DNA of 64,000 bases from Acidobacteriota bacterium (GTDB lineage: Bacteria; Acidobacteriota; Terriglobia; Bryobacterales; Bryobacteraceae): contig JANXSF010000020.1 of the NCBI GenBank assembly GCA_025352795.1, positions 62,001-126,000 of the forward strand. The letters run 5' to 3'. The position numbers were made by a program, and so were the translations under genes. The notes under the pieces were generated by a model. That model was given only the letters and a program-made list of their open reading frames with translations. It ran no database searches and was not told the origin of the DNA. Positions 10,325 to 60,122 of this stretch are shown here, in pieces. How positions within the stretch are numbered: the stretch's first letter is position 1; each line of letters opens with the position of its first letter.

Positions 10325-10522
10325 CTATTCGATGTCTTTGCTTCTCTTTTTTCGATTGCGTTTCCGCGCTAGGGCTTCCTTGGTACGGCGCTTCTCGCCC
10401 GGCTTGAGGTAAAAGGAGTGACGCTTGATCTCCTTAATAATGTCCTCTTGCTGGACTTTCCGCTTGAAGCGGCGTAATGCGCTTTCCAGGGTCTCCCCGT
10501 CTTGCACGAGTACTTCAGCCAA
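10325..10522 (-). CDS. rpsU: 30S ribosomal protein S21
   Basis: The 65-residue product is a typical bacterial S21: MAEVLVQDGETLESALRRFK, then KEIKRHSFYLKPGEKRR and a basic tail of Arg and Lys. S21 sits near the anti-SD region of 16S rRNA and takes part in mRNA binding on the 30S subunit. The start codon is a TTG at 10522 with a strong SD (AGAGGTGA) seven bases upstream, which decides the start. It is a single-gene unit: a leader hairpin lies upstream (10558-10578) and a terminator-like hairpin downstream. Confidence 0.96.
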   Translation of the reverse strand: MAEVLVQDGETLESALRRFKRKVQQEDIIKEIKRHSFYLKPGEKRRTKEALARKRNRKKRSKDIE

Positions 10523-10557
10523 TCGAATTCACCTCTCAGTCGTGGTTAAATTGAAAT

Positions 10558-10578
10558 GCCTTGCCCAGTGGGCAAGGC
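10558..10578 (-). terminator. perfect hairpin between the 10616 gene and rpsU (terminator or leader attenuator)
   Basis: A perfect 9-base stem GCCTTGCCC / GGGCAAGGC with a 3-base loop. On the minus strand it is followed by ATTTCAATTT. It lies 37 bases after the stop of the coiled-coil gene, so it can be its terminator. A TATAAG at 10596-10591 lies just upstream of it, in which case the hairpin would sit at the very 5' end of the rpsU transcript and could attenuate rpsU. Confidence 0.65.
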
Positions 10579-10615
10579 AGATCCACCAAACTTATAGGAT
10601 AGCAGACACTTACGA

Positions 10616-11500
10616 CTAACGGGCGCTGGTGACCTTGGGTGTAGACAAATAGCCGATGATTACATCTTTACTCACCTTGTTCACCACAATTTCGTAGGGC
10701 TGTTTGGCTTTGGAAGTGTAAAACTGCAAGGGCTCGTTAATCGATTTATCTTTCTTTTCCGTCATTAAATCGTCCGCTAGCACTTCAACGGTGAATTTAT
10801 TCTTCTTGATGTCGGTCTTCTTGAGCAGCATGGAAATGTCGCCGACACGCTGCGGATCTTTGGTCTTCCCCAGCTTAAATTCGGTGATATTCCGTTCGCC
10901 CAAAGCCCGCAGTGCGGAAATTTCACCGGAGTTGGTGGCAATTTTCATACCCGCACCATCCAGATCTCCACGCACGGTTTTCAACGAGACTATGGTTTTA
11001 TCCAGTTCGGTCTTGTTGTTGGCCACATCGGTTTTGACTGTGCCCACTTCGGTCTTCACTGCGCCTACTTCGGTGGATACCGCTCCAATCGCCGTTTTTG
11101 CTTCATTGGCAGCTTCGCCAATCTTGGTGGTCAGCGCGGCTTCCGCCTTTTTCTGTTCCGCTTCCAGCTTATGGGCTAAGGTTTCGGCATACTTTTCAGC
11201 GTCCACCTTGGCTTGGCCAGAGGACATTTGCGCCGACCGTCGAGCAGTCTCTAATTGATCCTGCAACTGAATGAGTTGTTTCTTGCTGGTAGCAACGGAA
11301 ATAGAAGATGTCTGCCTGACTGTGGAAATTTCCTCAGTAAACGCTTCTTTGGTCTTGGCAATATCATCTTTGGTCTTATCAAATTGAAGGAACAGGTAAA
11401 CGTTCGATGCTATAAGGGCAAGTACTGCGCCAAACAGGACTGGAATCTTGGCCCCTCCCGAAGGTGGTTGAGGGTATACGGGAACAGGATTTTCACTCAT
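10616..11500 (-). CDS. membrane-anchored coiled-coil protein
   Basis: I do not recognise a named family. The product has about 294 residues: a Pro-rich cytoplasmic N-terminus (NPVPVYPQPPSGG), one membrane segment (IPVLFGAVLALIASNVYLFL), and a long coiled coil from about residue 45 to 200 with Lys/Glu/Ala heptads and a short TEVGAVKTEVGTVKTDV repeat. A folded C-terminal part follows (LLKKTDIKKNKFTVEVLADD, then PLQFYTSKAKQPYEIVVN). The ATG at 11500 is chosen because of an AAGGAAG SD; an upstream in-frame ATG at 11569 lacks one. The topology resembles cell-envelope spacers or tethers, but this is inference. Confidence 0.78.
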   Translation of the reverse strand: MSENPVPVYPQPPSGGAKIPVLFGAVLALIASNVYLFLQFDKTKDDIAKTKEAFTEEISTVRQTSSISVATSKKQLIQLQDQLETARRSAQMSSGQAKVDAEKYAETLAHKLEAEQKKAEAALTTKIGEAANEAKTAIGAVSTEVGAVKTEVGTVKTDVANNKTELDKTIVSLKTVRGDLDGAGMKIATNSGEISALRALGERNITEFKLGKTKDPQRVGDISMLLKKTDIKKNKFTVEVLADDLMTEKKDKSINEPLQFYTSKAKQPYEIVVNKVSKDVIIGYLSTPKVTSAR

Positions 11501-11672
11501 TGACGATCTTCCTTTTCGCAAGTGGTTGGCTGGAAAGCCATTACAGACTTCCCACAGTATAACATTCACCTCTTTATATGCGGCGAAGGCCCAATAGGTT
11601 TCACAACAATCACCGGAGTACTAGTGTTGATCAATTTTCAACTTAGGGCCAGACCCTTAGCATGCCGCGCTA

Positions 11673-11701
11673 TTGAGAACAAAAACTACCGCCGATAGAC
11701 A
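11673..11701 (+). promoter_or_regulatory. candidate promoter of the peptide ABC operon
   Basis: TTGAGA (11673-11678), a 17-base spacer and TAGACA (11696-11701) lie directly before the ATG at 11707. Transcription from this promoter would start at or within a base of the start codon, and there is no SD, so the first permease may be translated from a leaderless mRNA. Confidence 0.45.
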
Positions 11702-11706
11702 AACGT

Positions 11707-12573
11707 ATGTCCGTCTTGCGTGCATTGGGCCGAATATTGTTGGTGGTTGTTGCCGGTGGATTCCTGGCCCAGGCTCTAATTGTGTTTGCCCCTGGTTACA
11801 GTGCCGATGAACGGGAACTGGACCCCGGCTTATCCGCCGAAACCCGCCAGACAATGTTGCAGGAAAAGGCAAAGGATCGCCAACTGTTGGGAAATTATGG
11901 AAGGTTTCTGTCGGGATTAGCTCGCGGAGAACTGGGGACATCCCGTTCGTTAGGGCGTCCGGTGAAAGAACTTTTGGAAGATCGACTGCCAGTCACGCTG
12001 CTTGCCATTGCAAAATCAGTGACCTTGGGTTGGTGTTTAGGATTCACACTGGCGGTGATCTGCTTCGCCTATCCTGGGTCGCCGATTGAAACTTTAGGGT
12101 TAGTATCTACGAATTTGTTGCTCTGTCTTCCTGCGGCGTTAATGGCCCTACTGCTATTGATATGGGGAGACGCCAGAGGCAGTGCCGGTGTCTGGGTGGT
12201 GGCTTTGGCATTAACTCCCAGAATTTTCAGATATAGCTACAACTTGCTGCGCCAATCCCACGAATCGCCACACGTGCTTTTGGCGATGGCCAAAGGTTTG
12301 GGGCCGATCCGAATTTTGTTTCACCACGTTATTCCTCCCATTGCTGGCCAACTGATCGCACTGGTGGGTCTATCGGTCAGCTTAGGCTTAAGTGCCGCTA
12401 TCCCCGCAGAGGTGGTTTTGGACATTCCAGGTATAGGTCAATTAGCTTGGCAAGCTGCCCTAAGCCGGGACTTGCCCCTGCTTGTGAATCTTACCTTTGT
12501 GGTGGCGCTGATTGGGACCACGGCCAATGCTCTATCGGACTATTTGCTTGCCGAGACGGTGCCAGGGCAATGA
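11707..12573 (+). CDS. peptide/nickel-type ABC transporter permease (DppB-like)
   Basis: A 288-residue inner-membrane permease of the BPD_transp_1/DppB family, slightly shorter than usual. An N-terminal helix (ILLVVVAGGFLAQALIVFAPG) is followed by a periplasmic loop with the FLSGLARGELGTSRSLGRPV block typical of DppB, then five more membrane helices. The EAA loop that contacts the ATPase is seen in AMAKGLGPIRILFHHVIPP. First gene of a four-gene transporter operon; it ends in an ATGA overlap with the next permease. Confidence 0.9.
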   Translation: MSVLRALGRILLVVVAGGFLAQALIVFAPGYSADERELDPGLSAETRQTMLQEKAKDRQLLGNYGRFLSGLARGELGTSRSLGRPVKELLEDRLPVTLLAIAKSVTLGWCLGFTLAVICFAYPGSPIETLGLVSTNLLLCLPAALMALLLLIWGDARGSAGVWVVALALTPRIFRYSYNLLRQSHESPHVLLAMAKGLGPIRILFHHVIPPIAGQLIALVGLSVSLGLSAAIPAEVVLDIPGIGQLAWQAALSRDLPLLVNLTFVVALIGTTANALSDYLLAETVPGQ

Positions 12574-13385
12574 AACTGCGCCGAATTATTGCGTGCCTAC
12601 TCATCGGATTAGCGGTGCTTTTGCTGGGTGCCCGCTGGGTGGCCCCGCACGGGTATGAACAGCAGTTTCGCGACTTCATTGCGGCAAGTCCGACCAAAGA
12701 ATTCCCGTTGGGCACTGACGCCCTGGGTCGGGATCGGTTGGCCAGACTTCTGTATGGAAGTAGACTTTCCCTCTTGCTAGCTCCAGCGGCGGCCGCCGTA
12801 TCTGTTTTCCTGGCGGCCTTAATCGGCGGCTTGGCGGCATTTGCCGGTAAACGGTGGGAGCGGGCCATTCTACTGGCAACGGACCTTACCCTATCCCTAC
12901 CCTGGCTATTTTTGATTCTCACCATCCGCGGAGCCATGCCACTGGATGTGCAGCCAGAGATTTCCGTGTTGATTACATTTCTGGTGCTGGGGTTACTGGG
13001 CTGGGCTGGGCCGGCACGCGTGGTCCGGGCTGGTGTAAAAAAAATCATTGCGTCCGATTTTGTCTTTCAGGCAAACGCCATGGGAACTCCGCCAAGACGC
13101 ATATTTTTTCACTATATTCTTCCGAATGTCCGTCCATTGCTTTTTGCGCAATTCTGGATTTCTTTACCTGTTTTCATCCTCAGCGAGGCAAACCTGGGGG
13201 CCATGGGATTAAGCGTATCCGAGCCGATGCCCAGTTGGGGAAACCTATTGCGGGAGTTGGAATCACAAACCAGCGCCCTGGAACACCCATTGCAGAATTG
13301 GTGGTTACTAGCACCCATTGTGTTGCTGGTAGGAGTTGTAAGTTTATTACAAGTTTGGCAGCAACGACCGAAAGGATCTTTATGA
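12570..13385 (+). CDS. peptide/nickel-type ABC transporter permease (DppC-like)
   Basis: A 271-residue second permease. It shows the DppC landmarks: N-terminal helix, FPLGTDALGRDRLARLLYGSR, then five or six helices and an EAA loop (ANAMGTPPRRIFFHYILPN) and the GLSVSEPMPSWGNLL block near the end. The start at 12570 overlaps the dppB-like stop by four bases; a longer in-frame extension to 12447 lies inside the previous gene and is rejected. The stop overlaps the start of the binding-protein gene in the same ATGA way. Confidence 0.92.
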   Translation: MKLRRIIACLLIGLAVLLLGARWVAPHGYEQQFRDFIAASPTKEFPLGTDALGRDRLARLLYGSRLSLLLAPAAAAVSVFLAALIGGLAAFAGKRWERAILLATDLTLSLPWLFLILTIRGAMPLDVQPEISVLITFLVLGLLGWAGPARVVRAGVKKIIASDFVFQANAMGTPPRRIFFHYILPNVRPLLFAQFWISLPVFILSEANLGAMGLSVSEPMPSWGNLLRELESQTSALEHPLQNWWLLAPIVLLVGVVSLLQVWQQRPKGSL

Positions 13386-15019
13386 GCTTGATTCTGATTC
13401 CATTTCTACTCGCCGCCGCTGCTACTCCGGCGGAATTGAGCGCGTCAAAGATTCTAACTGGCGGTGAACTCCGTTTCGTCCTGCCTTCTGAGCCCAAAAC
13501 ATTGCATCCTTTGCAGGTGTCTGACGAATCGGGGGAACTGATTCGATATCTGACGTCGGGGTCACTGGTACGGCTGAACCGGGTATCGCAGAAGATTGAA
13601 CCGGAACTGGCCGAATCGTGGAAGCTGGGGGATAACGGGGCGCAAATCACCTTCCAATTGCGCAAGGGATTGAAATACTCGGATGGATCTCCTTTCGATT
13701 CCGCCGATGTAGTTTTCACCATTCAAAAGCTACTGGACAAAACCATGGTTTCCCCTGCAGCGGAATCTTTCCGACCCGAAACAGGCACGGTGGAAGTGAA
13801 AGCGTTGGGAGCAACCACGGTGGTGGTCAAATTCCCAAGCCATGTTGCGGGAGTGGAACGGCTTTTTTCAGGCCTTTCCATACTATCTTCCCGCTCTCCA
13901 AAAAAAGAAGCAGTGGGCTTGGGTCCGTTTGTGATTGCCGAATCAAAAGCGGGATCGTTCCTGCGCATGACCAGGAATTCCAACTATTGGAAGAAGGATA
14001 GTAACGGGCGACAACTTCCTTACCTGGATGGAATCCGTGTGGAGTTCCAACGAAATCGTGATATTGAACTGTTGCGATTTCAAAAGGGCGAGCTGGATTT
14101 GGTAAGCAACCTGGAACCAGAAGCCTTTGAAAAGTTGAAGACCAATCCAGCGGTAACCAGTCTGGATTTGGGAACTTCGTTGGATGCAACACAGCTTTGG
14201 TTCAATCAGGTCCCCACAGCACCAATTGGAGCGTACAAAAAGGAATGGTTCGGATCGCAAGCATTTCGCCTGGCAATTTCAGAATCCATCAATCGAAAGG
14301 ATATGGCCAGGGTTGTGTATCACGGCTTTGGAGTTCCCGCGGCTGGGTCAATCTCACCGAGCAATATTTTCTGGTACGCAAACGAGTTGAAGGCTCAGGA
14401 GTTTCAGCCAAAAGCAGCATTGGCTCGCTTACAAAAAGAGGGCTTTCGTTTAGATGGGGAGCAGTTGAAGGACAAAGGCGGCAACCTCGTGGAATTCACC
14501 ATTGTCACCAATACCGGCAACAAAGTAAGAGAGCGGCTGGCGGCCATGATTCAGGCGGATTTGCGGCAAATGGGCATCAAAGTGACGGTAGCGGCGCTGG
14601 ACTTCCCTTCCCTGATTGAAAGAATCATGCGGACCTTTAACTATGAAGCTTGTTTGTTGGGTGTGGTGAATACGGACCTGGACCCTTCTTCGCAAATGAA
14701 CTTTTGGCTCAGTTCCGGTTCCAGCCACGCTTGGAATCCCAATCAAAAGACACCAGTCACAAGCTGGGAAGCAGACATTGATAAATGGATGCGGTTGCAG
14801 TCTAAAGAAATTGATCCGAAGAAGCGGAAAGCAGCTTTTGACAAGGTTCAGGTGATTGCAGCGCTGCAATCGCCGATCATCTATCTGATTAATAAGCGCA
14901 CTTTGGGAGCAGCATCTCCTCGTGTAAAAAACCTGAAACCAGCCATTCTTCCGCCACACATGGTGTGGAACATTGAAGAAATCTATTTTGCCGAAGGGGC
15001 GGGGAAAGTCGCCAAATAG
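13382..15019 (+). CDS. ABC transporter substrate-binding protein, family 5
   Basis: A 545-residue periplasmic binding protein (SBP_bac_5) that should deliver peptides or similar solutes to the permeases. It has a signal peptide (MSLILIPFLLAAAATPA) without a lipobox, then the family start LRFVLPSEPKTLHPLQVSDE, LAESWKLGDNGAQITFQLRK, LKYSDGSPFDSADVVFTIQK and the FRLAISESINRKDMARVVYH block. The ligand cannot be read from sequence. The ATG at 13382 overlaps the dppC-like stop; the open frame extends back to 12854 but that part is inside the permease gene. Confidence 0.93.
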   Translation: MSLILIPFLLAAAATPAELSASKILTGGELRFVLPSEPKTLHPLQVSDESGELIRYLTSGSLVRLNRVSQKIEPELAESWKLGDNGAQITFQLRKGLKYSDGSPFDSADVVFTIQKLLDKTMVSPAAESFRPETGTVEVKALGATTVVVKFPSHVAGVERLFSGLSILSSRSPKKEAVGLGPFVIAESKAGSFLRMTRNSNYWKKDSNGRQLPYLDGIRVEFQRNRDIELLRFQKGELDLVSNLEPEAFEKLKTNPAVTSLDLGTSLDATQLWFNQVPTAPIGAYKKEWFGSQAFRLAISESINRKDMARVVYHGFGVPAAGSISPSNIFWYANELKAQEFQPKAALARLQKEGFRLDGEQLKDKGGNLVEFTIVTNTGNKVRERLAAMIQADLRQMGIKVTVAALDFPSLIERIMRTFNYEACLLGVVNTDLDPSSQMNFWLSSGSSHAWNPNQKTPVTSWEADIDKWMRLQSKEIDPKKRKAAFDKVQVIAALQSPIIYLINKRTLGAASPRVKNLKPAILPPHMVWNIEEIYFAEGAGKVAK

Positions 15020-15028
15020 GGCAAGTCT

Positions 15029-15829
15029 ATGGGATTGACTCCACTACTTTCGTTGTATCTGACGGCGGAATACCCTGGCAAGGGGACCGTCCTCAATGGG
15101 GTGAGCCTGGACGTTCAAGCGGGCGAAATTCTGGGACTGGTGGGACAAAGCGGGTCGGGAAAAAGCACTCTGGCGCTGTCCATTTTGCGGCTGCTGCATT
15201 TCAAGGGAGGCAGTGATTCAGGCAGTATTCTGTTTCGCGAAACAGACTTAATGAAAGCCAGCGAAAAGGACATGCGGAAACTGCGCGGCAAGGACATCAG
15301 TTTGGTGATGCAAAGCCCGCTCGCATCCCTCAACCCCTCCATGACCGTAGGAAATCAGTTACTGGAAGCATGGCGAGCTCATTCTAAGTTGGATGGCACG
15401 CAGGTGATTATGGAAACGCTGCGTCAAGTCAGTCTCTCGGTAGACGTTGCCTTTCTCAACCGCTATCCAACACAGCTCAGCGTGGGGCTGGCCCAACGAG
15501 TCCTAATCGCGATGGCCGTGCTGCATAAACCGGCACTGTTGCTGGCCGATGAGCCCACCAGCGCTCTTGATGCGCTTACCCAGGCTGAAATATTGGAGCT
15601 GTTTGCCCGGTTGAATCGCGAAAATGCTACGGCCATGCTCTATGTGTCGCACGATTTGCTTTCGGTGGCATCGCTGTGCCATCGCATCGCCATTTTGCAT
15701 GAGGGCAGAATTGTGGAACAAGGGGAACCGAAGGACATCTTTGAAAATCCGCAGCATGAGTACACCCGCAAGCTGGTGAACGCGGTACCCACATTACGAT
15801 TCAAATCACGGGAGTTGATTCCGGCTTAA
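15029..15829 (+). CDS. ABC transporter ATP-binding protein (DppD-like)
   Basis: A 266-residue ATPase. Walker A is GQSGSGKST, the Q-loop is LVMQSPLASLNPSM, Walker B is LLLADEPTSALD and the H-loop is YVSHDLLSV. The signature motif reads LSVGLAQR, where most family members have LSGGM/QQR; the Gly-to-Val change is unusual. The C-terminal ENPQHEYTRKLVNAVP is the oligopeptide-ABC extension. Only one ATPase is encoded, so it either forms a homodimer or pairs with one from elsewhere. Its stop codon shares a base with the start of the HD-GYP gene (TAATG). Confidence 0.92.
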   Translation: MGLTPLLSLYLTAEYPGKGTVLNGVSLDVQAGEILGLVGQSGSGKSTLALSILRLLHFKGGSDSGSILFRETDLMKASEKDMRKLRGKDISLVMQSPLASLNPSMTVGNQLLEAWRAHSKLDGTQVIMETLRQVSLSVDVAFLNRYPTQLSVGLAQRVLIAMAVLHKPALLLADEPTSALDALTQAEILELFARLNRENATAMLYVSHDLLSVASLCHRIAILHEGRIVEQGEPKDIFENPQHEYTRKLVNAVPTLRFKSRELIPA

Positions 15830-18246
15830 TGGATCCTCGCAATTCCCAATCCGCCAACTTTTTCGCTGCCGCCGTCATTGTGATAGGGGCGCTGACGATT
15901 GGCTTGGGATTGAGCCAATGGAGATCGGCAGATCTCGCCCGGCTGGTAACGTATGTTTTGATTACCGTGGTTGCCGCCAGGATGAGAATCCAACTGCCTT
16001 CCATTCAAGGGACGCTGTCGGTGTCGTTTCTGTTTGCATTCGTAGGCGTGCTGGAACTGAGTTTGGCTGAATCTATCTTGTTGGGAATCGTTTCCGTCTT
16101 GTCGCAAAGTGTGTTTCCCAAGAAGTCAAAAAACTATCAGATCGCCTTTTCGGTGTCGAACAACTGCTTCGCTATCGCCATTGTCTATGCGCTGTATGCG
16201 GTCCTGGGATCCCGTTTTTCAACGCTGGGCATGCCCTTGATTTTGACTGCGTTGACATTGTCCTTCTTCCTGCTCAACACCGTCCCAATCGCCATCGCCA
16301 TTGGGTTGACGGAAGGGAGAAACATAGTAGCGATCTGGAAAAAGAACTACCTATGGTCCTTCCCACTGTATCTGGTAGGTGCCTGTCTGGCAGGGCTCAT
16401 GCATTTTGCGTCCCTGGAATTGGGCTGGCAGGTGTCCCTGCTACTGCTGCCTTTGGTGTACTTGATTTATAGCTCATACAGCAGCTACACGGGCAGGCTT
16501 CAGGATGGCAAAGCTCACGCAGAAGAAATGGCGTCGCTGCATCTTCGGACCATCGAAGCGCTGGCATTGGCGATTGAGGCAAAAGACGATTCCATTCATG
16601 CTCATTTGCAGCGCATTCAAATTTACGTCGTAGAACTGGCCAAGCAGTTGGGTCTGGCCCCAAAAGAGATCGAGGCGCTACGGGCTGCGGCGATTCTCCA
16701 TGACATCGGCAAGCTGGCTGTGCCGGAACACATCAGTTCCAAGGCGGGCCGACTCACTCCGGAAGAGTTCGAAAAGATGAAAATCCACCCCATTGTGGGG
16801 GCAGAAATTCTTGAGCGAGTTCAATTCCCCTACCCTGTGGCACCCATTGTATTGGCCCATCATGAAAAATGGGATGGGTCAGGATACCCGTACGGGTTGA
16901 AAGGGGAGCAGATTCCCATTGGTGCCAGAATCCTTTCTGTCGTGGACAGCCTGGATGTTTTGTCATCAGACAAACAGTATCGGCCGGCACTCCCTTTAGA
17001 AGATGCCGTGGCATATATTTCGAGGGAATCCGGGAAGAGCTTCGATCCGAAAATTGTGGACCTACTTAAACTCCGCTACCTTGAGTTGGAAGAGCTTTCG
17101 AAACAGAATATCCCGAAACAGAATGATATCCAGCGAGTTGCCAGGGAACAACCAGTGGATCGCCGGGTCAACTTTGAAGAAGAGCCGCCAAACTTGTTGC
17201 TGAGGGCTCAAGAAGCGCCACGGATCGACTTTCTGACTTCCATTGCAGCCGCCAGACAAGAGGCTCAAAACCTTTACGAGTTATCGCAGGAACTTGGCAC
17301 ATCCTTGAGCCTTAGTGAGACTCTTTCCCTGGTCGCTTCCCGGCTGAAACCAATGGTTCCGTTTCATGCGCTGGCCTTGTTCACTCTGCAGAACGAGGTT
17401 CTCACCCCAGAGTATGTGGAAGGTGCCGATAGCATGTTGCTTCAGGGCTTGAATATTCCCAAAGGTGCGGGGATTTCCGGATGGGTGGCAGCCCATTCAA
17501 AACCTGTGATTAATGGAAATCCGGTGATGGAACCGGGTCTATTGAGTGCGGCGAATTTATCGACGGTCCTGCGGGGTGCCTTGGCTGTTCCTTTGGTGGG
17601 AGTGAATGGGACCATTGGCGTGATCACGCTGTATCGAACCGAATCCGATTCTTTTAGTCGCGATCACCTTCGTATTCTTCAGGCAGTTGCCGGGAAACTG
17701 GCCTTCACGGTAGAAAATGCCCGAAAATACGAACAGGCAGAAACCTCCGCTTCAGTTGACTATCTGACGGGTTTGCCAAACGCCAGAGCCATTTTCCAGC
17801 GGGTGGATGCCGAACTTGCTCGCAGCAGTCGCACCGGTGAGCCCTTGGCGGTTATGGTTTGCGACTTGGACGGGTTCAAGAAAATCAACGATATGTTTGG
17901 GCATCTGACGGGGAATAAAATCTTACGAGCATTTGCCGCCAGCCTTCGCGAACTGTTCCGGCAGTACGATTTAGTAGGCAGGTTGGGCGGTGACGAATTT
18001 GTTGTGGCCTTGCTCGGCATGAATTTGGACGATGCCCAACAACGCGTTCACCAGATTGACGAAATGGTGAAGCAGGTTGGAATGCAAATTACAGGAACAG
18101 AGCATTTGGCCATCAGCATTGGCATTGCGATCTTTCCGCAAGATGGAGAAACCGTGGAGGCGCTGCTTTCAGAAGCCGACCGCAGAATGTATCAGGTGAA
18201 GCGATTGAATCAAGCCAGCCGAACTCCCATCATCATCAAAGCCTAA
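15829..18246 (+). CDS. membrane HD-GYP / GAF / GGDEF cyclic-di-GMP protein
   Basis: An 805-residue protein. Residues 12-215 form about six membrane helices. Residues 236-418 are an HD-GYP phosphodiesterase domain (HDIGKLAVPE with H291-D292; HHEKWDGSGYP with GYP at 352-354). Residues 480-635 are a GAF sensor, and residues 640-800 are a diguanylate cyclase with an intact GGDEF at 720-724 and an inhibitory RxxD site at 711-714. Both cyclic-di-GMP making and breaking sites look competent. The ATG overlaps the stop of the ABC ATPase by one base, so expression is coupled to peptide uptake. A full-length paralogue lies at 57636-60122. Confidence 0.95.
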   Translation: MDPRNSQSANFFAAAVIVIGALTIGLGLSQWRSADLARLVTYVLITVVAARMRIQLPSIQGTLSVSFLFAFVGVLELSLAESILLGIVSVLSQSVFPKKSKNYQIAFSVSNNCFAIAIVYALYAVLGSRFSTLGMPLILTALTLSFFLLNTVPIAIAIGLTEGRNIVAIWKKNYLWSFPLYLVGACLAGLMHFASLELGWQVSLLLLPLVYLIYSSYSSYTGRLQDGKAHAEEMASLHLRTIEALALAIEAKDDSIHAHLQRIQIYVVELAKQLGLAPKEIEALRAAAILHDIGKLAVPEHISSKAGRLTPEEFEKMKIHPIVGAEILERVQFPYPVAPIVLAHHEKWDGSGYPYGLKGEQIPIGARILSVVDSLDVLSSDKQYRPALPLEDAVAYISRESGKSFDPKIVDLLKLRYLELEELSKQNIPKQNDIQRVAREQPVDRRVNFEEEPPNLLLRAQEAPRIDFLTSIAAARQEAQNLYELSQELGTSLSLSETLSLVASRLKPMVPFHALALFTLQNEVLTPEYVEGADSMLLQGLNIPKGAGISGWVAAHSKPVINGNPVMEPGLLSAANLSTVLRGALAVPLVGVNGTIGVITLYRTESDSFSRDHLRILQAVAGKLAFTVENARKYEQAETSASVDYLTGLPNARAIFQRVDAELARSSRTGEPLAVMVCDLDGFKKINDMFGHLTGNKILRAFAASLRELFRQYDLVGRLGGDEFVVALLGMNLDDAQQRVHQIDEMVKQVGMQITGTEHLAISIGIAIFPQDGETVEALLSEADRRMYQVKRLNQASRTPIIIKA

Positions 18247-18251
18247 GAGCC

Positions 18252-19364
18252 TTACATCAGGCTGGCCAAGCTCTTCCACTTGCGCTGCTGCGATTCCGCC
18301 ACACCTGCATAAACTACTTCGCCCTTATACGTATTAACACCTTCCGCAATGGCTGGATTACTGAGGCAAGCCTCCACCAATCCTTTATTGGCCAGTTGCA
18401 GAAGATAAGGCAGCGTGGCGTTGTTCAAAGCGAAAGTGGATGTATGGGGAACGGCTGCGGCCATGTTCGTCACGCAATAATGCAGGACGCTGTCCACGTA
18501 GTAAACCGGATCGGTGTGAGTGGTTGGTTTTGATGTTTCCAGGCAACCACCTTGATCAATGGCAACGTCTACCACCACGGAACCCGGTTTCATCAACGAA
18601 ATCATGTCTCGTCGAACCAGCTTGGGGGCGGATGCACCAGGAATCAGCACTGCGCCAATCACCAGATCGGCATGCTTCAAAGCGCCACGAATCGTATAAA
18701 CATCTGAGGCCAGCGTCACTACATGGCCATTATAAATATCGTCCAGTTCCCGCAACCGGTTCAAATTTTTGTCGATGATGGTGACGTGCGCGCCCAGCCC
18801 ACAAGCGATTTTCGCAGCATTGTGACCCACAATGCCGCCGCCTAAAATCACCACATTCGCCGGTGCTACACCAGGAACTCCCCCCAGCAAAATCCCCCGA
18901 CCACCGTTGGCCTTTTCCAGATACTGCGCACCCACTTGGACAGACATTCTACCAGCCACTTCGCTCATCGGAGTGAGTACCGGCAGCGACCCGTCCTTTT
19001 CGCGAATCGTTTCATAAGCCACCGCAGAAACTTTGGATTCCAGCAGTTTCGCCGTCAGTTCCGGCAGCGGTGCCAGGTGAAGAAATGTTGCGAGAATCAA
19101 ACCAGGACGGAAGTGAACGTATTCCGCAGGAAGCGGTTCCTTCACCTTCACAACCATATCGGAACGGTCCCAAACTTCACCAGCAGTGGCCACAATATCG
19201 GCACCGGCTTCCACATAATCCTGATCTGGTAAGCTGCTTCCTTTCCCTGCACCAGATTGCACCAACACTCTGTGGCCAGATTCCACCAGCGCCGTCACAC
19301 TGGCGGGCACCAGCCCCACGCGTGTTTCGTGATCTTTGATTTCTTTTAGAACGCCGATAATCAT
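18252..19364 (-). CDS. ald: alanine dehydrogenase
   Basis: The 370-residue product matches NAD-dependent L-alanine dehydrogenase, which interconverts alanine with pyruvate and ammonia. Landmarks: MIIGVLKEIKDHETRVGLVP, the substrate region TFLHLAPLPEL, the catalytic-His block SVLHYCVTNMAAAVPHTST and the NAD site VVILGGGIVGHNAAKIACGLGA. Length is standard. The start is one base after the TAA of the peptidoglycan-binding gene, as last member of the aromatic amino acid operon. Converges with the HD-GYP gene with a 5-base gap. Confidence 0.96.
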   Translation of the reverse strand: MIIGVLKEIKDHETRVGLVPASVTALVESGHRVLVQSGAGKGSSLPDQDYVEAGADIVATAGEVWDRSDMVVKVKEPLPAEYVHFRPGLILATFLHLAPLPELTAKLLESKVSAVAYETIREKDGSLPVLTPMSEVAGRMSVQVGAQYLEKANGGRGILLGGVPGVAPANVVILGGGIVGHNAAKIACGLGAHVTIIDKNLNRLRELDDIYNGHVVTLASDVYTIRGALKHADLVIGAVLIPGASAPKLVRRDMISLMKPGSVVVDVAIDQGGCLETSKPTTHTDPVYYVDSVLHYCVTNMAAAVPHTSTFALNNATLPYLLQLANKGLVEACLSNPAIAEGVNTYKGEVVYAGVAESQQRKWKSLASLM

Positions 19365-57635: not shown

Positions 57636-60122
57636 CTAAGTGACATTGGTGTCCACTTGGTCGATGCTTGACTCTTGCGTTGTTTCTTCTAGCGCAGCGG
57701 CTGCCGTCGATTCTTGCAAGGCAAGAAGACCCTTGGTCATCTTGTGATGAATTTCCTTCATGGCATACATGCGACGATCTGCTTCCGCCAGTACTTCCTC
57801 AGCGTTGGTTCCGTCGCTTGGATATTTGGCCTGGCCTACGCTAAGAGCCACAACTTCTTGCCCAGTCAGAATGCGCCCTTGCTCTGCCACCATGCTGGCC
57901 AATTGTTTCTTTCGTTCTTCAACGACTGCGTCTGGCACATTCGGCAGAACAATCACAAATTCGTCACCACCCATGCGCGCCACATAGTCATTGGGCCGCA
58001 GGTGGACTTTCAATCCTTTGGCGATCATCTGCAGCAGTTTGTTCCCTTCTAAATGGCCAAACCGATCATTCACTGCTTTGAAACCGTCCAGATCCAACAC
58101 AAGAGCGGTCAGTGTTTCACCCGCAGCCTCGGACCTGTGCAGTTCGCTATCCAGATGCAGGAAGAGCGATCTGGCGTTGGGAAGTCCGGTTAACGAATCC
58201 GTTGAGGCAGTTTTTTGTTCATTTTTGAATTTCAGCGAGTTTTCAATGGCGATTCCACACTTCGACCCAATAGCTAACAGGATACGCAAGTGATCCCTGG
58301 AAAACGCGTCATTTTCCGCATGGTACAACGTCATGGATCCGATCACATTGCCCGCGCCATGCAGTGGAATGGAAATGGCGGAACGCAGCGCACTGAATTT
58401 CTTTGCATCGTTCAAATAACCCGGTTCCACCGAAGGGTTTCCATTGATGATGGGACGATGATTTTCCACTACCCAGCCGGATAAACCTTGTCCCATAGGG
58501 ATTTCTAAGGAGGCGAAGAGTTTGGAATCGGTACCTTGCACAAACTGCGGAATCAACTTGTCTTCTTTGGTTAAGTAGAACGCGATGCAATCATGAGGCA
58601 CAACTGTTTTCATGCGCGTCGTAAGAAGAGAAAAGGTGTCGTCCAGGCTTAAAGAACTACCCAAATCCTGGGTTAATTCGAACAAAGTTTGAATCTCCTG
58701 CCGTGCTGCAGCAATGGAGGCAATGAAATCAGCCTGGGGTCGCTTCACTTCCGTAGTTGGCGCACCTTCGCTGGCCTCGAATCCGGCAGCGGGCGCTTCC
58801 CCTCGCTCTACCTTTACTGCGGTCGAAAGACGCTCATCTTCAATGGTCGCATCCCTGGCCATTTTTTCCAGATCTTTGTAGCGATGGCGCAGGACTTCGA
58901 TCACTTTAGGATCAAAACTTTTACCCGATTCAGCGATCAGCACATCCATAGCCTGGTCTAAAGGAATGGCTCGACGATACTGTCGGTCCGATGCCATTGC
59001 GTCCAAACAATCCACTGCCGTCAAGATGCGCGCACCAATCGGAATGTCTTCCCCTTTGATCCCGTCGGGATAGCCGCTACCATCCCATTTTTCGTGATGA
59101 TGGCGCACAATAGGCACAACCGGATAGGGGAATTTCACCGATTCCAGAATTTCTGCCCCAACCACCGGATGAATTTTCATCTTGTCGAATTCCTCAGGCG
59201 TCAGACGACCTGGTTTCGAGATGATGTATTCCGGCACGGCCAGCTTTCCAATGTCGTGCAAAAGTGCAGCAGTTTGCAAGGCCCGCATGATTTCTTCAGG
59301 AACGTTCAGTTCCTTGGCGATTTCCTGAGCATAAATCTGCACCCGTTTTAAGTGATTGTGCGTGGTTACGTCTTTGGCATTGATGGCCAGGGCCAGTGAT
59401 TTGATGGTTCTTAAATGAAGATCCGCGATCTGTGACACATGTTGCTGCTCTTGTTCCAACCGACCAAGATAGAGCCTGTAGGATCGATCTACAAAAAACA
59501 GGCAAGGAAGCACCAGCACAGAAACTTCCCATCCAAAAACGCCTACCAGAACATGGATCAACCAAGTCAACATTGCCCCAAAAAGGTATTGTGGCGACGT
59601 CCAAAAGTAGTTGTCCTTCCAAAATTGCCAAACCGGTTTCTCTAAACTGAGCGCGGCAATGGTAGCGACGGAAACGGTGTTGAAAATAAAGAAGCCAATA
59701 GCTGTCCAAAACACCATGATGGGGAATTTGGAGTTGATGCTCCTCAGATATTCAGAATGAAAAATTAGGTAAGCAAGCCCGCACGATGTTGCGCAGCTAG
59801 CGGCATTGAACATCACGTGAATGAGCTTGAGCTTGTTCTTCGAGTTCCAAAGTAGTTGCGTGAGCGCCCCGGTAACAGACACGATGACTGTTTTACTTGG
59901 ATCAAGAGCCGTTACTGCCAATAAAGTGAAGACGAAGTTCACCGACATTGTCCCGTTGACGCCGGGCATCCGCACTTTCATCTGTGAGCAAAGAGCGACA
60001 AACACAATATAGAATGCGAATTGCAGCAGGTTGTCCCCTTTCCAGTTGGAAAGAGCTAACGCCAATGCAATCAATCCAAGGATGATTGTAGAGTAGGCAA
60101 ATATGCGTGCTCGAATTGGCAT
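57636..60122 (-). CDS. membrane HD-GYP / GAF / GGDEF cyclic-di-GMP protein, paralogue
   Basis: An 828-residue protein with the same layout as the one at 15829-18246: about six membrane helices (10-215), HD-GYP (HDIGKLAVPEYI at 289-298; HHEKWDGSGYP with GYP at 350-352), GAF (475-630), GGDEF (718-722) with an RPND inhibitory site at 709-712, and an extra acidic tail of about 25 residues. All catalytic residues that I can check are kept in both copies. It is a single gene; no SD is visible, and an inverted repeat lies 14 bases before the start. Confidence 0.95.
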   Translation of the reverse strand: MPIRARIFAYSTIILGLIALALALSNWKGDNLLQFAFYIVFVALCSQMKVRMPGVNGTMSVNFVFTLLAVTALDPSKTVIVSVTGALTQLLWNSKNKLKLIHVMFNAASCATSCGLAYLIFHSEYLRSINSKFPIMVFWTAIGFFIFNTVSVATIAALSLEKPVWQFWKDNYFWTSPQYLFGAMLTWLIHVLVGVFGWEVSVLVLPCLFFVDRSYRLYLGRLEQEQQHVSQIADLHLRTIKSLALAINAKDVTTHNHLKRVQIYAQEIAKELNVPEEIMRALQTAALLHDIGKLAVPEYIISKPGRLTPEEFDKMKIHPVVGAEILESVKFPYPVVPIVRHHHEKWDGSGYPDGIKGEDIPIGARILTAVDCLDAMASDRQYRRAIPLDQAMDVLIAESGKSFDPKVIEVLRHRYKDLEKMARDATIEDERLSTAVKVERGEAPAAGFEASEGAPTTEVKRPQADFIASIAAARQEIQTLFELTQDLGSSLSLDDTFSLLTTRMKTVVPHDCIAFYLTKEDKLIPQFVQGTDSKLFASLEIPMGQGLSGWVVENHRPIINGNPSVEPGYLNDAKKFSALRSAISIPLHGAGNVIGSMTLYHAENDAFSRDHLRILLAIGSKCGIAIENSLKFKNEQKTASTDSLTGLPNARSLFLHLDSELHRSEAAGETLTALVLDLDGFKAVNDRFGHLEGNKLLQMIAKGLKVHLRPNDYVARMGGDEFVIVLPNVPDAVVEERKKQLASMVAEQGRILTGQEVVALSVGQAKYPSDGTNAEEVLAEADRRMYAMKEIHHKMTKGLLALQESTAAAALEETTQESSIDQVDTNVT

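Follow-up and report, generated by a model that had tools for sequence, protein, structure and literature searches.

Introduction

MbaA of Vibrio cholerae has EAL and periplasmic domains. Together with NspS it is described as a bifunctional polyamine receptor in which a solute-binding protein (SBP) and one enzyme make or break cyclic di-GMP (c-di-GMP) according to ligand (PMC8967002). Receptor kinases of the 5TMR_LYT type, such as BtsS and YpdA, are reported to share the fold of the S-components of energy-coupling factor (ECF) transporters and to be without the AxxxA motif needed for ECF assembly (PMC11109136), and the OppABCDF and DppABCDF importers provide a further point of comparison. In this article, I will discuss a locus that resembles all of these in part, at positions 11707-18246 of a 64,000-nucleotide stretch (the window) of contig JANXSF010000020.1 from an Acidobacteriota bacterium of the class Terriglobia, where five co-directional genes encode two permeases, an SBP of the SBP_bac_5 family, the single ATPase of a peptide-type ATP-binding cassette (ABC) importer and finally a membrane HD-GYP-GAF-GGDEF enzyme of c-di-GMP. 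How the uptake of nutrients determines c-di-GMP is a question of general scope, and few conserved operons are known in which an importer and a c-di-GMP enzyme stand together.

By analogy, the nearest known logic would be that of NspS-MbaA, for here too an SBP gene stands beside the gene of a c-di-GMP enzyme with two activities, the likeness being one of genes and motifs; the window enzyme differs in having HD-GYP rather than EAL (Pfam found no EAL match in it), a predicted S-fold domain and a whole ABC importer in its operon. Like the 5TMR_LYT receptors (PMC11109136), its membrane domain is S-component-like with an extra N-terminal helix, occurs with GAF, GGDEF or kinase outputs and mostly misses AxxxA in helix 1, and unlike them it is MASE9-related (PF20972), has an extra C-terminal helix and an HD-GYP output, and belongs to an enzyme joined to a type I importer of peptide type. 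MASE9 is not named in the main text of PMC11109136 (0 occurrences of "mase"), a search of the open literature on MASE9 found nothing related, and no description of such an importer clustered with a MASE9-like c-di-GMP enzyme was found in the open literature, a scope outside which most subscription papers fall. The importer shares with Opp and Dpp its two BPD_transp_1 permeases and SBP_bac_5 protein (11707-15019) and an oligo_HPY ATPase, and differs from them in that the operon has one ATPase gene instead of two distinct ones (D and F) or a fused pair, and in its signature, which reads S-[V/T/L/I]-G instead of the S-G-G of the solved relatives shown.

Comparison of genomes and of motifs establishes a conserved genetic linkage of importer and enzyme and, at the level of sequence, intact catalytic motifs. 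Beyond this I consider it somewhat probable that the locus is a member of a Terriglobia peptide-foraging module, whose membrane receptor would set c-di-GMP by peptide supply or transporter state.

Importer and enzyme are linked across the Terriglobia

The sequence-only reading of the window had proposed that this operon couples solute uptake to second-messenger turnover, and the association extends well beyond this strain: pooled over three surveys, the enzyme lies on the same strand in 96 of 115 de-duplicated informative importer loci of the class. This total is the sum of 66/73 from an 80-locus set, 25/32 from a class draw and 5/10 from a first sample, after removal of repeats (16 of the 60 class-draw loci recur from the 80-locus set, and six of the 80 from the first sample). 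The first sample, 61 genomes comprising the window's own and its relatives, yielded 16 loci of the one-ATPase importer, of which 10 have a same-strand HD-GAF-GGDEF enzyme adjoining the importer, two have a hybrid histidine kinase with the same membrane domain (L153 on the same strand, L148 on the opposite one) and four have neither, among them L155, whose contig ends in the SBP gene. The 80-locus set, the best 80 of 490 relatives from a scan of genome_contigs (84,980 species) with an SBP alignment, shows the enzyme immediately upstream and in the same orientation in 63 loci (judged by the GGDEF domain, with 10 of the 63 cut off inside the enzyme by the contig end), immediately downstream in two and farther downstream, behind a subtilase gene, in one, while seven are without it and seven are cut off. 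The class draw, which was not ranked by the window's SBP, came from 299 genomes spread evenly over the class and searched with an ATPase alignment, 105 of them having a match at 1e-80; 60 further loci were taken, mostly in score order, and 52 of these have the family SBP, 47 being informative after five that are cut off. The enzyme is found on the same strand within 9 kilobases (kb) in 40 of the 47 (one cut inside the enzyme), and the other seven comprise two enzymes on the opposite strand, one of them without recognisable GGDEF, two same-strand MASE9-HD-GAF proteins without recognisable GGDEF, one same-strand kinase with the same membrane domain, and L292 and L300 with nothing of the kind.

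Two control sets, both small and imperfect, lack the link. The enzyme is present in none of the eight class-draw loci that have a canonical-signature ATPase and no family SBP or permeases, and in none of six SBP relatives with two ATPases or none, although in one of the six, L159, the SBP is preceded by a separate HD protein of 230 residues. Because the same genes recur in tight order across many other genomes, the arrangement in the window is not due to chance, and an abundant, poorly understood class of soil bacteria is seen often to carry importer and enzyme, the latter with a predicted sensor fold, in a single genetic unit. The module is also present in the strains AB60 (L229) and Occallatibacter savannae (L259), neither of which is called a metagenome-assembled genome in its record title, and this opens the coupling to testing. 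The record titles of the 80 loci name Acidobacteriota groups except for L226 and L255, titled Acidimicrobiia and Betaproteobacteria, which carry the acidobacterial cluster all the same and are probably mislabelled.

What is conserved is the linkage rather than the gene order. The enzyme is mostly the first gene of the cluster, often with a gene for a subtilase or a sigma54-type activator no more than 10 kb away, and the window's order, with the enzyme directly behind the ATPase, is a minority found in its genus (L180, which is genome G001, with TGATG, and L181 with TAAATG) and in L146 (overlap of 4 nucleotides (nt)), L302 (about 60 nt) and L304 (start unsure); conservation thus holds widely for the association, and for the strict order only within the genus and these three loci. 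Translational coupling through the TAATG junction, which the sequence-only reading had proposed, was rejected as a conserved principle because the enzyme comes first in 63 of the 80 loci, and the restricted distribution of the window's order makes the junction a local variant, by which enzyme and ATPase would probably be made in a coupled way in the window's genus. In all 63 enzyme-first loci the enzyme stop lies within 159 nt of the first aligned codon of permease B, and the distance to the furthest-upstream possible B start has a median of 9 nt and is at most 30 nt in 51 of 61, figures that lean short as they use the furthest-upstream in-frame start.

The enzyme and its membrane domain

HD-GYP phosphodiesterases are marked by HDIGK and HHExxDGxGYP, and GGDEF diguanylate cyclases by the GGDEF active-site loop and an RxxD I-site. 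The window enzyme has all four intact (the second as HHEKWDGSGYP) and so carries the motifs for both hydrolysis and synthesis of c-di-GMP, which justifies its earlier description as bifunctional at the level of motifs only. Among 56 full-length enzymes (the window plus L180-L259, a few being second copies within the same loci), HDIGK is intact in 55, HHExx[DN]GxGYP in all 56 and GGDEF with the I-site in 55, L239 having SGDEF instead.

The Pfam profile of MASE9 matches 36 of 49 aligned relatives of the membrane domain (best 8e-9), and neither the window row nor anything else in its genome. For these 49 aligned rows AlphaFold2 gave a model (pLDDT 92.0, pTM 0.86) with a predicted six-helix S-component fold, residues ~33-200 of the window enzyme corresponding to S-components. 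The first 12 PDB matches in Foldseek are all S-components (E 0.019 or worse), three untitled entries being counted among them; 4m5b and 4m58 are NikM and 4huq is an ECF complex. VIA-align places 21 S-component entries first at Z 10.1-13.0, ahead of the next family at Z 7.6, the best being 5x3x_M (Z 13.0, root-mean-square deviation 4.0, 183 aligned). Unrelated helical bundles can also give Z values below about 13, so the argument depends on how cleanly the S-components lead the ranking. MASE9-like proteins also occur alone, as membrane proteins of some 240 residues that carry no output domain, at L250:14432-15157 and 27 similar places in L180-L259, mostly beside subtilase genes; a second, independent model made for these stand-alone proteins, also with a predicted S-component fold, ranks 22 S-component entries ahead of all others (Z 10.0-14.4, against 8.3 for the next), and they are possibly protease partners or receptors.

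The window domain departs from an ECF transport subunit, which is marked by AxxxA in its first helix and by an ECF module as partner: AxxxA occurs in only six of the 49 rows, the window not among them, and the single CbiQ/EcfT gene that the genome was found to have is on another contig. I infer that the domain is a receptor and not a transport subunit. At L148:5566-7872 and L153:3247-5124 the same membrane domain is fused to a hybrid histidine kinase whose gene neighbours this importer, and the proposal of the sequence-only reading that the membrane part could be a sensor gains from these two genomes and, in its strict form, loses from L146 and L304, whose linked enzymes are without the S-fold.

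The importer

The SBP at 13382-15019 is the sole SBP_bac_5 member found in the genome (estimated 96.6% complete) and the ATPase at 15029-15829 has no close second there (next best match 7.9e-25), so the genome probably has no other importer of this kind. No second ATPase lies within 3 kb in any of the 80 loci, and five are farther off at 27-29% identity. In place of the canonical LSGGQ or LSGGM signature the window ATPase has LSVGL, and S-V-G replaces S-G-G in 15 of 15 aligned ATPases. Across the 80 loci the third signature place is V in 74 of 75 readable cases and T in the remaining one (four ATPase matches being too short to read and one locus being without a match), while among the class-draw loci V, T, L or I stands there in 52 of 52 with the family SBP and G in eight of eight without family SBP or permeases, a division made by the signature itself, which coincides with the presence of the SBP as mapped separately. 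S-G-G is kept in two-ATPase relatives with a readable motif and in the nearest solved ATPases shown, fused DppD (8wd9) and Rv1281c (8j5q) of M. tuberculosis. This altered signature in a one-ATPase importer is an oddity separate from the c-di-GMP linkage.

The closest solved SBPs include binders of peptide, nickel and heme. Genes for subtilases of secreted type are neighbours in many loci (subtilase matches in 31 of those 41 loci of the 80-locus set whose flanks reach 9 kb or more on each side; three checked by Pfam are Peptidase_S8), and on account of these genes peptides are the favoured, still putative, substrate. Four subtilase relatives occur elsewhere in the window's genome.

What the module may do

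A peptide-type importer joined to a c-di-GMP enzyme, often near proteases, suggests that feeding is wired to a lifestyle switch. In the peptide-foraging reading that I prefer, subtilases would release peptides and the importer would take them up, the S-component-like MASE9 domain would read a small ligand or the state of SBP or transporter, the signal would pass through a signalling helix and the GAF domain to shift the balance of the two catalytic domains, and c-di-GMP, and through it attachment or motility, would follow peptide supply. Motility as the output would fit L146:4646-9098 (minus strand), where the ATPase is followed by the c-di-GMP enzyme (ATGA overlap) and then by motA and motB on the same strand.

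A number of observations weigh against this reading, and they are taken here with the alternatives on which they bear. The same-strand enzyme is missing from 7/73, 7/47 and 6/16 importer loci in the 80-locus set, the class draw and the first sample, respectively, and no subtilase gene is found near the window's own locus. MASE9-like enzymes have no linked importer in 36 of the 46 rows of a first enzyme tree, so the domain is not a dedicated transporter reader, and the linked enzymes of L146 and L304 keep (by eye) one or two hydrophobic helices, which suggests that in some species only membrane placement is kept. The S-fold domain might bind a small ligand of its own, for example a peptide breakdown product or an organic acid (BtsS and YpdA have pyruvate), without ever touching the importer, the operon serving to co-express sensor and importer for the same food. 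I regard this as somewhat unlikely: the unlinked enzymes speak for it, as do the predicted S-component fold with its extra N-terminal helix and the scarcity of AxxxA, both of which recall the receptor kinases (PMC11109136), yet it would by itself leave the retention of the enzyme in so many importer loci unexplained, and it does not cover linked enzymes that have no S-fold domain.

A more intimate arrangement would be a transceptor, in which the S-component-like domain docks on the SBP or permeases and turns transport state into making or breaking of c-di-GMP, with the altered-signature ATPase as a slow or regulated motor. If true, an ECF-type fold would have been re-used to meter the flux through a type I ABC importer to which it is unrelated, and kept as such across a major soil class; I consider this unlikely. 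In a comparison of 50 loci, the distances of enzyme domains correlate with those of importer parts (r 0.69-0.88 for the membrane, GAF and GGDEF domains, 0.54-0.65 for HD), and as a test of contact this was rejected, common descent dominating and leaving a weak lead to the SBP only. Among the partial correlations of the membrane domain, that with the SBP is the largest (0.35), and those with permeases B (0.02) and C (0.08) are close to zero, values that, if meaningful, would speak against sensing through the permeases.

Coupling could also be confined to the output, with c-di-GMP regulating the operon or the subtilase genes, for example via a sigma54-type activator, and the enzyme sensing something unrelated through its GAF or membrane domain. 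Genes for such activators stand divergently beside the enzyme in many loci, activator matches occur within 32 of the same 41 loci with long flanks, and two checked by Pfam have no receiver domain, which would suit such a role. Against it, no activator gene is found near the window's own locus, GAFTGA is present in just six of 46 activator matches, most others having GAFSGA (e.g., L143:5003-6049, minus strand), and a scan for the sigma54 promoter consensus with at most one mismatch gave matches in only four of the 35 regions that separate activator and enzyme genes (shuffling predicts 0.68 sites) and in two of 45 stretches that precede subtilase genes (0.28 predicted), while dppB had none in front of it in either the window or L180. 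The promoter matches are weak evidence for sigma54 control of the cluster, and coupling through the output alone seems to me quite improbable.

Finally, much of the linkage count is common descent, since in a tree of 96 enzymes most of those from enzyme-first loci fall in one large part, and one could hold that a tight operon was inherited with no functional coupling at all. This neutral explanation I find very improbable, as the linked enzymes are not one clade, the link survives changed gene order and persists down to about 50% SBP identity, and the small control sets are without it. Single inheritance of the link was rejected in a quick tree, where the 10 linked enzymes of the first sample do not form one clade (p-AU 0.0069, approximately unbiased test, which presumes a group named before the tree is seen; this group was named by gene neighbourhood). 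That first tree has 46 rows, 13 open reading frames of cluster 0 (fragments, other outputs and the two G057 frames) having been left out and one G057 frame then restored. The 96-enzyme tree was built without proteins of fewer than 700 residues, two rows on long branches and four rows from contigs that were already represented. In it the label "linked upstream" needs 10 changes, at least six of them forced by well-supported branches, and the window's pair lies apart from the main linked part, which suggests that in its lineage the link was re-formed rather than only inherited. The association has therefore been kept or re-made through changes of order and of paralogue.

The locus in detail

The run of genes, the overlaps and the stop-start junction described from the sequence alone were borne out by the sequence and by Pfam families (Table 1), the junctions being, from 5' to 3', ATGA, ATGA, a gap of 9 nt and TAATG. 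Pfam E-values are 2.4e-17 and 3.9e-14 for the two BPD_transp_1 domains, 3.4e-71 for SBP_bac_5, 1.7e-27 for ABC_tran and 5.1e-8 for oligo_HPY in the importer, and 1.2e-39 for HD_5, 7.8e-13 for GAF_2 and 1.5e-41 for GGDEF in the enzyme.

Table 1. Coordinates of the importer-enzyme locus in the window.
Feature	Position	Strand	Basis and remarks
Intergenic region, presumed operon promoter region	11570..11706	+	Between divergent coiled-coil gene and dppB
dppB-like permease (BPD_transp_1)	11707..12573	+	Pfam; 72% identical copy in G001
dppC-like permease (BPD_transp_1)	12570..13385	+	Pfam; ATGA overlap with dppB at 12570-12573
SBP_bac_5 solute-binding protein	13382..15019	+	Pfam; ATGA overlap with dppC at 13382-13385
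Single PepT-type ATPase (ABC_tran + oligo_HPY)	15029..15829	+	Pfam; 9 nt after SBP stop
ABC signature LSVGL, replacing LSGGQ/LSGGM	15476..15490	+	Sequence; S-V-G invariant in 15 aligned relatives
TAATG stop-start junction ATPase/enzyme	15827..15831	+	Sequence; enzyme start inside ATPase stop
Membrane HD-GYP-GAF-GGDEF c-di-GMP enzyme, 805 residues	15829..18246	+	Sequence, Pfam
MASE9-like membrane domain	15838..16494	+	AlphaFold2 model; about eight hydrophobic helices by eye
HD-GYP domain	16570..17055	+	HDIGK 16699-16713; HHEKWDGSGYP 16858-16890
GAF domain	17305..17715	+	Pfam
GGDEF domain	17749..18207	+	I-site RQYD 17959-17970; GGDEF 17986-18000

Site scans found neither a sigma70-like nor a sigma54-like site in the region upstream of dppB, and no sigma70-like site on either strand of 10400-18500 (mean 6.1 in shuffles), other promoter types lying outside the scan. 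A second MASE9-like HD-GYP-GAF-GGDEF protein, a 44% identical paralogue not linked to such an importer, is encoded at 57744-60110 on the minus strand. The locus is flanked downstream by a convergent alanine dehydrogenase gene (18252-19364) and upstream by a divergent gene for a coiled-coil-like protein (10616-11569, minus strand), and relatives of the latter recur around other loci with MASE9-like enzymes or Opp genes (L139, L141, L160, L168, L175 and L177).

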